In this document: in pieces, positions 5,888 through 20,387 of the stretch
Layout of the letters: every line of letters starts with the position of its first letter
How positions within the stretch are numbered: the first letter of the stretch is position 1
NCBI GenBank assembly: GCA_943359525.1
Contig: CALRHV010000010.1
Coordinates: 1-32,602 of the forward strand
Direction of reading: 5' to 3'
DNA length: 32,602 bases
Origin: Candidatus Uhrbacteria bacterium
GTDB taxonomy: Bacteria > Patescibacteriota > Patescibacteriia > UBA9934
Notes under the pieces: generated by a model
Databases searched by the model: none
Told to the model about the DNA's origin: nothing
The model's input: the letters and a program-made list of their open reading frames with translations, nothing else
Position numbers and translations under genes: made by a program

Positions 5888-6247
5888 TTAGACAACAGGT
5901 GCAAAGACGTCGATCGTCGCTCCTTCTGGCAACGAGATCATCGCTTTCTTGAAACTCTTGATGTGTCCGTTGGATTTGGCAAAGTGCACGGCACGCGGAC
6001 GAACCGTAATGACGTTCACCTTTACTGGAGTAACGCCGTACAATTCTTTAAATGCCTGCTTTACTGCAACACGCGTTGCAGACAACGCAACACGGAAAAC
6101 CATAACGTTATTACCCGAAAGCATTGCGGTCTTTTCCGTCACCATTGGCGCAAGAAGCGTGTCGGTTGCAAAACGAGAAAGCGCTTTCAGTGCTGGAGCT
6201 GAAGTTTCCACGGCTGCCTTCTTCGATTCAGTTGATTTCTTTGGCAT
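5888..6247 (-). CDS. rplW: 50S ribosomal protein L23 with short N-terminal extension
   Basis: LLAPMVTEKTAMLSGNNVMVFRVA...VKQAFKELYGVTPVKVNVI. Confidence 0.94.
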   Translation of the reverse strand: MPKKSTESKKAAVETSAPALKALSRFATDTLLAPMVTEKTAMLSGNNVMVFRVALSATRVAVKQAFKELYGVTPVKVNVITVRPRAVHFAKSNGHIKSFKKAMISLPEGATIDVFAPVV

Positions 6248-10063: not shown

Positions 10064-10095
10064 CAACCCTAAGGGTTGGTCAACGCTAAGGGTTG
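10064..10095 (+). repeat. 32-bp REP-like quasi-palindromic repeat, solo copy
   Basis: CAACCCTAAGGGTTGGTCAACGCTAAGGGTTG; 30/32 identical to the copy at 19097-19128. Confidence 0.85.
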
Positions 10096-14544: not shown

Positions 14545-14850
14545 CTATGCGGAAATAAAGTCGAATCGCTGTATTTCTTTTTCAATACGCTTCCCCGATG
14601 CATCCTGTTCAAGAAGCAGCTCATATCGAGACTGAAGATTCGTCCAAAATTCTGCAGAAGTTCCGAAGTAGGCTGCGAATCGGAGTGCGGTATCTGCAGA
14701 AACAGAACGATTACCATGAACGATTTCATTGATTCGACGAGCGGGGACATTAATGTTTTTCGCAAGACGGTACTCAGTGATCGCTAATGGCTTCAAAAAT
14801 TCCTCACTGAGAACTTCGCCTGGATGAATCGGTGAGATTTTAGTGATCAT
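14545..14850 (-). CDS. higA: HigA-type XRE/HTH antitoxin
   Basis: MITKISPIHPGEVLSEEFLKPLAITEYRLAKNINVPARRINEIVHGNRSVSADTALRFAAYFGTSAEFWTNLQ. Confidence 0.93.
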   Translation of the reverse strand: MITKISPIHPGEVLSEEFLKPLAITEYRLAKNINVPARRINEIVHGNRSVSADTALRFAAYFGTSAEFWTNLQSRYELLLEQDASGKRIEKEIQRFDFISA

Positions 14851-14854
14851 ATAT

Positions 14855-15133
14855 TTAGTGATAATCCTCAATCTGAACTTCGTATGCATTTCCATCTTTC
14901 CAGGCAAAACAGATTCGCCACTGATCGTTAATCCGGATACTGTAATATTCCGATCGTTTTCCTTGAAGCTTCTCTAATCTATTTCCCGGAGGGATCTTGA
15001 GATCCGATATCGATATTGCCGCGTGAAGCATTTCCAATTTTCGCAAGACTATTCGTTCAAATTTCTCAAATATTTTTACGCGTTCTCGAAGGAATATCTT
15101 CTCCGTTTCATCATTCCCAAAAGTTTGAATCAT
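14855..15133 (-). CDS. higB: HigB/RelE-family toxin
   Basis: MIQTFGNDETEKIFLRERVKIF...LHAAISISDLKIPPGNRLEKLQGKRSEYYSIRINDQWRICFAWKDGNAYEVQIEDYH. Confidence 0.93.
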   Translation of the reverse strand: MIQTFGNDETEKIFLRERVKIFEKFERIVLRKLEMLHAAISISDLKIPPGNRLEKLQGKRSEYYSIRINDQWRICFAWKDGNAYEVQIEDYH

Positions 15134-18600: not shown

Positions 18601-18645
18601 AGTCGTGCGTTCCTCAACGGGAACACCCTGTTAAAAAGTAGCAAA

Positions 18646-18674
18646 AGCCTACCACAAGCCAAAAAATGGGTCAA
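18646..18674 (-). promoter_or_regulatory. Predicted promoter of the rpsL (str) operon
   Basis: Minus: TTGACC (18669-18674), 17-nt spacer, TAGGCT (18646-18651). Confidence 0.5.
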
Positions 18675-18704
18675 CGGATTATGACGAATGAGTCGTCTTT
18701 TTAG

Positions 18705-18751
18705 TTGACAAAATGCAAAAATCCTTTATATTTTATGTTACCAGAGGTAAC
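18705..18751 (+). promoter_or_regulatory. Near-consensus promoter plus operator-like palindrome
   Basis: TTGACA (18705-18710), 16-nt spacer, TATATT (18727-18732), then GTTACC-AGA-GGTAAC (18737-18751). Confidence 0.7.
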
Positions 18752-18754
18752 GAT

Positions 18755-19042
18755 ATGGCCTTTCGTTCTAACAAACCCTTCACACTTCAAGTCTCACTGT
18801 CCGAAACGCTGGACCGTGTTGTGACAGCACTCAAACAAGCGAACCCCACGATGAGCGACGAGGCGCTCTCAGAAGCCTGCGGATGGAAGGCGACAACGAT
18901 TCAACTATTCCGCGACAAACGTCGGTATCCCGGAGGATCGCATCTGAAAAATCTCGAATCCGCAATCGAGAACGGGCGAGTAAATGGCTCGGCCTCAGCC
19001 ATCTACGACATCCGTTGCATCCTCGAGCATCCCATCTTCTAG
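18755..19042 (+). CDS. Small protein, possible HTH DNA-binding regulator (95 aa)
   Basis: ATG 18755, since the track start at 18713 lies inside the promoter: MAFRSNKPFTLQVSLSETLDRVVTALKQANPTMSDEALSEACGWKATTIQLFRDKRRYPGG... Confidence 0.6.
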   Translation: MAFRSNKPFTLQVSLSETLDRVVTALKQANPTMSDEALSEACGWKATTIQLFRDKRRYPGGSHLKNLESAIENGRVNGSASAIYDIRCILEHPIF

Positions 19043-19090
19043 GCCGCCGACCGACCGCTCACACGAAGAGTCGTCGCAAGGCGGCTTTTC
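19043..19090 (+). terminator. Terminator of the 18755 gene
   Basis: GCCGCC ... GGCGGC followed by TTTTCTGTTTT. Confidence 0.6.
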
Positions 19091-19095
19091 TGTTT

Positions 19096-19671
19096 TCAAC
19101 CCTTAGGGTTGGTTAACGCTAAGGGTTGGCTGTTTCCGAAGATTTCCCTTATTTCTTGCTCATCAAGAACTGGATCGTGAATCAACCCTTGGTAGTGACG
19201 ATAGCTCGACCACGGATATTCAAGAAGCTTCGCGTGCTGGTCCATCTCGTCAATTGATACAAAAAGCTCTTTGGCGTTCATGTGAATATAATCGACGAGA
19301 CTATGCAGGTATATATCGTCCTCAATGACCTTTGCTTTAAACGTTGATTCAAACAATCGGCCGGACCGTTCATTACGAAGATTAAAGTATTTTGTATAAC
19401 TGTTACCGAATCGCTCCATAAATAACGAGACTCCCCCATCCTCCAACTGACGAAGAAGAAAATGAAAATGGTTTGGCATCAACGAATACGCAATAACAGC
19501 AACGTCATGTCGTCGATCGTCGAGGTTGTGCATGCTCCTGAGCACCGAAGCAAGAAAGCGCTCATAATCCGAAACATCTGAAAAGATATTCCGTTTATCC
19601 GTTCCTCGATTATAGACGTGATAGTAGCCGCCAGTTGAGAATTCGAGCAATCGCATAGTTTGAATTTTCAA
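19096..19671 (-). mobile_element. RAYT / REP-associated Y1 (IS200-like) transposase; ATG at 19656, TTG at 19671 lies inside the repeat
   Basis: HUH motif NHFHFLL; YTKYFNLRNERSGRLFESTFKAKVIEDDIYLHSLVDYIHMNAKEL typical of Y1 transposases of RAYT type. Confidence 0.88.
19097..19128 (+). repeat. 32-bp REP-like repeat, copy at 3' end of RAYT
   Basis: CAACCCTTAGGGTTGGTTAACGCTAAGGGTTG; contains the last 10 codons and stop of the transposase. Confidence 0.88.
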
Positions 19672-19700
19672 CTCTTAGGGTTGGTCAACGCTAAGGGTTG
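19669..19700 (+). repeat. 32-bp REP-like repeat, copy at 5' end of RAYT
   Basis: CAACTCTTAGGGTTGGTCAACGCTAAGGGTTG; same orientation as the other copies. Confidence 0.88.
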
Positions 19701-19706
19701 ACCGAC

Positions 19707-20387
19707 CTACCCTCCAAAATACACCCCCAACAACCCACCGCAGGATGTGCCGATCAGCTGATCGCAACCAAAATAGGATGCAAGTTGAATAAAGTAGAAC
19801 GGATCGTACGACGTCATGAGAGCAATCATCACGAGGATGAGCATGATTCGTGGACCATTAATTTGCAGCCAGCGCGCAAACCATTCGTAGCCAGTGCGAT
19901 ACGTGACGACATCGACGAGCTTTGATCCGTCCAGTGGATGCACAGGAATAAGGTTGAACACCAAAAGTAAAAGGTTCACAAGAACAGAAAGCACAAGGAA
20001 TGCGCCGAGCATTGTGTCCATGCGAACGACGCCGGTCTCCAAGAAGATTCGGAAGAGACCTGCGGCAACCACGGCCATGATGAAGTTCGAGATTGGCCCG
20101 GCCAACGCGATCATTAATCCGTCTTTCAGTGGTGATTTCAAATTTTGCGGATCGAATGGCACAGGCTTCGCCCAACCGAAACCAACGGTGACAAGCATGA
20201 GAAATCCCAACGGATCAATATGCGCTAGCGGATTCAACGTGAGCCGACCGAACTTTTCCGCCGTGTCGTCACCACGCCACTTCCCCACCAACGCATGAGC
20301 AAACTCGTGCACCGTGAGCGCGATAATCAACGCCGTCAGCCAGACGAACGCGAGCATTGGCATGGTGAAAAAAAGTTGGAGAAGCAT
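19707..20387 (-). CDS. Site-2 protease family (peptidase M50) membrane protein
   Basis: ALTVHEFAHALVGKWRGDDTAEKFGRLTLNPLAHIDPLG...NLIPVHPLDGSKL. Confidence 0.92.
   Translation of the reverse strand: MLLQLFFTMPMLAFVWLTALIIALTVHEFAHALVGKWRGDDTAEKFGRLTLNPLAHIDPLGFLMLVTVGFGWAKPVPFDPQNLKSPLKDGLMIALAGPISNFIMAVVAAGLFRIFLETGVVRMDTMLGAFLVLSVLVNLLLLVFNLIPVHPLDGSKLVDVVTYRTGYEWFARWLQINGPRIMLILVMIALMTSYDPFYFIQLASYFGCDQLIGTSCGGLLGVYFGG

Follow-up and report, generated by a model that had tools for sequence, protein, structure and literature searches.

A probable REPtron-like element with direct palindromic ends in a Patescibacteria genome

Introduction

REPtrons consist of a transposase gene, RAYT or TnpAREP, situated between two dispersed palindromic REPs, with the flanking REPs in inverted orientation (Nunvar 2010, PMC2817692). 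In Escherichia coli TnpAREP, the guide-reading residues for GTAG are W94, Q95, E100, H101 and R104 (PMC6006769). TnpAY1 subclass 2.1 is characterized by the motifs NH[YF]H, W[EQ]/FQ and Y[IV]HLNP, and is described as lacking REP-like sequences and carrying GGGGWSAS inverted repeats (Quentin 2018, PMC6006769; TIRYT, Di Nocera 2013, PMC3733652). REPINs comprise two inverted palindromic units and a spacer, form one long hairpin and are thought to move as a unit (PMC3116915). REP/RAYT systems have been described from Proteobacteria and some other phyla; the genomes considered here are about 0.9 Mb in size. No paper on REP/RAYT systems in Patescibacteria was found in the open-access papers searched, and subscription papers may hold more.

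This study concerns a stretch of 32,602 nucleotides from a Candidatus Uhrbacteria bacterium (assembly GCA_943359525.1, contig CALRHV010000010.1), hereafter the window, in which a preliminary description had recognized a RAYT-type Y1 transposase gene bounded by a REP-like repeat. The Y1 genes of the bacterial family were collected together with 80 further loci from public genomes. Bracketing by a repeat common to both sides was scored against the 99% level of mismatched pairs, and 38 REP doublets from eight genomes were aligned. Relatives are referred to by genome number (G001 and so on).

The locus and its repeat copies

The transposase gene, the repeat copies and the neighboring features are as follows.

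18713..19042, + strand: small ORF, the left neighbor; relatives have different genes in the same interval
19065..19096, + strand: intrinsic terminator whose T-run abuts the REP, common to the empty site in G003
19096..19656, − strand: RAYT-like Y1 (HUH) transposase gene, 186 aa; Pfam Y1_Tnp; HUH motif N62-H63-F-H65; catalytic Y123 in YIHMNA
19097..19128, + strand: REP copy at the 3' end of the transposase gene
19669..19700, + strand: REP copy at the 5' end of the transposase gene, in the same orientation as the 3' copy
10064..10095, + strand: third REP copy, gene-less, also at the orthologous site in G002
19707..20387, − strand: M50-family peptidase gene, the right neighbor; a conserved flank that served to identify the empty site

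The two 32-bp copies flanking the gene lie in the same orientation, as the preliminary description had claimed, with 2/32 differences when read as direct repeats versus 6/32 when read as inverted. Its statement that they exactly bound the ORF does not simply hold for the left copy, which lies inside the minus-strand gene and supplies its ten C-terminal residues (QPLALTNPKG) and its TGA stop; the right copy lies 12 bp from the ATG at 19656. Similarly, the repeat sequence that it quoted stands as a consensus, from which the individual copies deviate (TAACGC in the left copy, CAACTC in the right). Only these two copies had been noted; the third full copy at 10064–10095 and a decayed doublet on contig 22 of the same genome (approximately 6024–6055) had been overlooked, and the genome total is three to four. 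Within the window, CAACSCTWAGGGTTG at up to two mismatches gave 12 strand matches versus 0.06 expected (15-mers together with their mirror matches). Across the whole genome of 865 kb, 13 matches were obtained at one mismatch, versus none for a reversed control pattern. An assembly artefact as the cause of the REP-gene-REP unit was ruled out, since the unit also occurs in an independent genome.

The interval between the S12 and M50 genes (window 18601–19706) is variable: the window and G003 each have unrelated small ORFs there, and G001 and G002 have a gene identified by eye as RdgB-like. The left-neighbor ORF had no match in Pfam. Elsewhere in the window, a HigB-like toxin gene is paired with an HTH antitoxin gene (14545–15133).

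Sequence, fold and distribution of the repeat

Among the 38 aligned doublets, conservation drops sharply at the edges of the 32 bp, with the exception of a preceding T and a following A. Almost every copy is a doublet, and most have a GT spacer (AC on the other strand). For the strand carrying the G:G mismatch, DNA folding predicts −10 to −14 kcal/mol, with z scores near −5 to −8; the fold of the opposite strand is clearly weaker. The predicted fold retains the 10-bp stem and G:G mismatch of the preliminary description, with an inner stem of 3 bp and a 4-nt loop in place of its 4-bp stem. Covariation of columns 7 and 24 (T-A/A-T) is seen in 28 of the 38 rows, with a shuffle p of 0.004 that is not controlled for relatedness. 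The comparison with the tetranucleotide foot of known RAYTs, proposed in the preliminary description, turned out negative: column conservation revealed no conserved flanking tetranucleotide, GTAG or other, in the 38 copies. A common CTWAG loop for all REPs of the family was considered and dropped, as the loops vary.

Each of the five species sampled in the genus has the doublet, as do three of the five sampled in the sister genus; a fourth sister-genus species has single 15-mers. The doublet is absent from 52 of the 60 genomes of the relative set, and in a 381-genome sample of the class, drawn without the REP-bearing genomes of the sister genus, it occurs only in the genus itself. Relative genomes carry 1–12 copies, far fewer than with classical REPs. 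Confinement of the repeat to this locus, which the preliminary description had named as grounds for refutation, is thus not seen, but its dispersal is modest. As an exact pattern, it was found in none of 2.9 million viral contigs, so phage carriage is not indicated.

Most REP copies are orphans, the cognate gene being present in only two of the eight REP-bearing genomes, so recent activity is at most conjectural. The transposase gene is absent from four of the five species of the genus, and G001–G004 keep REPs without it. The copy at 10064 is common to G002 and is not recognizable in G001 or G003; other sites are common to G003 and G004, and another to G001, G003, G004 and, in decayed form, G000. 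Several sites are thus common to different species and old. An intrinsic terminator lies within 70 bp of 8/38 REPs, compared with 2.6% of control positions.

Two side observations concern REP-associated content. In G001 (L173:1962-3016, G001:C19), a gene that by eye resembles a methyltransferase lies between two direct REPs and is possibly a REP-bounded cargo; the orthologous interval in G004 (L181, G004:C13) holds other content and different REPs. At L170 (G003:C5:33097), a small-gene insertion of about 430 bp directly adjoins a REP that stands alone in G001 and G004.

The transposase protein

The window transposase matches Pfam Y1_Tnp at 32.4 bits (cut-off 23). Its catalytic residues are intact: H63, H65, Y123 and N127 are invariant across 68 homologues. 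The family consensus YIHLNP reads YIHMNA in the window protein, with P replaced by A. The A1 consensus is NHFH, LFxG and YIHLNP, and the window protein (NHFH, LFES, YIHMNA) is a near match to the subclass 2.1 motifs. The AlphaFold2 model has a pLDDT of 93, with low confidence in the REP-encoded C-terminal tail; the REP can therefore act as a coding end without touching the fold.

In a fold search with this model, the top PDB match is 4er8, the structure of E. coli TnpAREP in complex with a REP hairpin, which ranks above IS608 and ISDra2. Identity to TnpAREP in the fold alignment is 13%; TnpAREP was reached only by profile and fold search, as plain phmmer against PDB returned nothing meaningful. 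Opposite the E. coli guide-reading residues W94, Q95, E100, H101 and R104, the window protein has F, E, A, K and E, in an alignment carried over by eye. The NCBI REP-associated model REP_Tyr_transpos matches weakly (44 bits, cut-off 80). The original designation as RAYT-type is thus borne out in the structural ranking, the class-2-type Y motif and the dispersed cognate repeat, but not in the foot, the guide contacts or the REP-specific profile, which falls far below its cut-off.

The window and G014 proteins are 62% identical. Their genes agree at 80% of codon position 2 versus 43% of position 3, which indicates that the transposase gene is under purifying selection. Synonymous divergence (dS) between the two genes is saturated. 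Host proteins of the two genomes are 50–90% identical (M50 50%, MurA 74%, S7 75%, S12 90%), so old vertical descent of the transposase is possible. The gene is present at one copy per genome, and no identical copies were found.

Y1 genes and cognate palindromes across the family

Short Y1 genes of the family are bracketed by common repeats in all 34 testable cases; the repeats agree better as direct copies in 13, better as inverted copies in eight and equally well in 13. All 16 long Y1 genes have inverted repeats, and 59 of 76 Y1 genes from other CPR bacteria passed the bracketing test. In the tree, the proteins of the window and G014 group together as a clade (100/99), and they have the same REP. 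The repeat sequence tracks the transposase lineage, each lineage having its own palindrome. A second RAYT in G003 fits this cognate rule: its own palindrome has 16 sites in that genome, and nine relatives have none. The true TIRYT type (280–310 aa), found in the same family, forms a separate clade; GGGGTCAGGTC inverted repeats occur only there and not at the window locus.

The preliminary description had regarded the direct arrangement as distinctive. It does depart from the inverted REPs of Nunvar 2010, but it is common in this family. The two ends of a Y1 element are both read on one strand, as established for IS608, and direct REP copies are accordingly what Y1 chemistry predicts.

Two features of the upstream regions were also recorded. 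An exact DnaA box, TTATCCACA, lies upstream of 12/36 short Y1 genes of the family (L240, L205, L191, L227, L226, L195, L203, L187, L197, L239, L234 and L164) and 4/16 long ones (L142, L155, L143 and L153). In the short genes, its usual place is between the 5' repeat and a −35 box of TTGAC type. It occurs 15 times in 14.4 kb of short-gene flanks versus twice in 67.6 kb of surrounding DNA, counts that come from related, hence not all independent, loci; 31.6 kb of Y1 gene flanks in other CPR contain none. These boxes suggest replication-linked control of the transposase. Furthermore, approximately 20 of 36 short genes, judged by eye, have a terminator- or attenuator-like leader hairpin between promoter and start codon (CTCCCC...GGGG followed by TTTTTAT, about 30–70 bp upstream of the start); this hairpin is absent at the window gene, where the leader is 12 bp.

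A relocated unit and a site with one REP

G014, which belongs to another genus, carries the same REP-transposase-REP unit with an identical spacing of 572 bp and the same relative orientation, among unrelated neighbor genes. The REP copies are again direct, and the REP encodes the gene tail in the same frame (QPLALTDPKG). L166 (G014:C5) and L204 (G017:C48) represent the same intergenic site in two species, occupied by two RAYTs of different clades with different palindromes.

The search for an empty site in close relatives, also proposed at the outset, succeeded in the sister species G003. There the window's site is recognizable on both sides, by the terminator on the left and the M50 gene on the right, and contains exactly one REP and no gene. 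In G001 and G002, another gene occupies the site. Between gain and loss as the source of the difference between G003 and the window, parsimony only slightly favors loss, since gene-less REPs persist in four species. None of the sites recovered was a clean, REP-only empty site whose boundaries match to the base.

Interpretation of the element

The element is real and resembles a RAYT in both architecture and fold, but departs from a canonical RAYT in that inverted copies and a GT[AG]G foot are both missing. We interpret it, with a probability of about 0.8, as a REPtron-like element of a Patescibacteria lineage, in which a Y1/HUH transposase gene has a cognate 32-bp REP at both ends and the transposase would spread the REPs. 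The observations in favor are the architecture, the dispersal, the lineage-level cognate specificity, the relocated unit, the site with one REP, the predicted hairpin with its covariation, the intact catalytic residues and the purifying selection; the low copy number, the many orphan copies and the old REP sites common to several species speak against it.

Three other readings were weighed. If the element were an ordinary IS200/IS605 insertion sequence, with subterminal hairpins that resemble REPs by chance, this would account for the Y1 domain, the end hairpins on one strand as in IS608 and the relocated unit in G014; this origin is nevertheless very improbable, given one copy per genome, a YIHxN-type Y motif rather than Y---Q, end repeats found mostly without the gene, and a fold search that ranks TnpAREP above IS200 transposases. 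Domestication of a TnpAREP-like protein for a cellular DNA-processing role, with REPs as binding sites rather than mobile ends, would agree with low copy number, purifying selection and the lack of identical copies. It appears improbable, because the gene is missing from four of the five species of the genus and the G014 locus holds a RAYT of a different clade in G017, which resembles turnover rather than conserved function.

The gene may instead be a static passenger, gained and lost by homologous recombination between REPs that are relics or host-maintained palindromes, for example transcript-end hairpins. Two direct 32-bp repeats are enough for a deletion of the RecA type or by slippage, which would leave a site like that of G003; REPs also lie near intrinsic terminators above the control level, and G001–G004 keep REPs without the gene. 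We regard this account as unlikely on the whole, though deserving of serious attention, since it leaves unexplained the near-identical 32-mers at many unrelated sites, the 572-bp unit found elsewhere, in G014, and the species-limited REPs that track their own gene.

For the REPtron-like element, we propose that the REP, when single-stranded, probably in the lagging-strand template and in step with replication, would form a hairpin with a bulge, made up of 10 bp, the G:G mismatch and 3 bp. We infer that the transposase would bind this hairpin and cut with Tyr123, thereby dispersing 32-bp REPs without the gene; movement of the entire REP-gene-REP unit would be rare. As the two ends have the same orientation, the gene could enter or leave a REP as one gene-plus-one-REP block, via the transposase or plain recombination. 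A more speculative and rather unlikely extension is that the REP serves as both end and target, with a gene-plus-one-REP single-strand circle being excised and re-inserted into another REP. If this were true, homing into a REP would leave the direct REP-gene-REP arrangement as its signature, and a single REP would be a restored empty site.

The significance of these observations is twofold. Throughout a whole family, Y1 genes are each bracketed by their own palindrome, and their motifs are those of a class described as lacking REP-like sequences. Moreover, with small genomes, few copies and a pair of occupied and empty sites, the origin and loss of REPs are easier to follow here than where copies number in the hundreds.

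Relation to known systems

Compared with IS200/IS605 elements (IS608, ISDra2), the window element is alike in its Y1 chemistry and in that one strand carries the hairpins of both ends, which makes them direct. It differs in lacking tnpB, a Y---Q motif and multicopy near-identical elements, being a single copy with YIHMNA, and in having end repeats that disperse without the gene. Like a REPIN, the repeat consists of two inverted palindromic units with a spacer and forms one long hairpin, but the spacer is only 2 nt, the units 15 bp, the total 32 bp and the copy number 1–12.

With subclass 2.1 and TIRYT, the element shares NHFH, LF instead of LW and the consensus YIHLNP, and repeats overlapping the 3' end of the gene have also been reported for TIRtrons; the window repeats differ in being palindromic, often direct and dispersed, rather than GGGGWSAS inverted repeats. 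With RAYT/TnpAREP, it has in common a lone Y1 HUH transposase of the same fold between two copies of a dispersed, lineage-tracking palindrome, here at low abundance, and a class-2 Y motif (Y---NP) represented by Y123 and N127, though with A for P in the window protein. It departs from that system in the missing GT[AG]G foot, the unlike guide residues, the few copies and the end copies, which are direct rather than inverted in both the window and G014.
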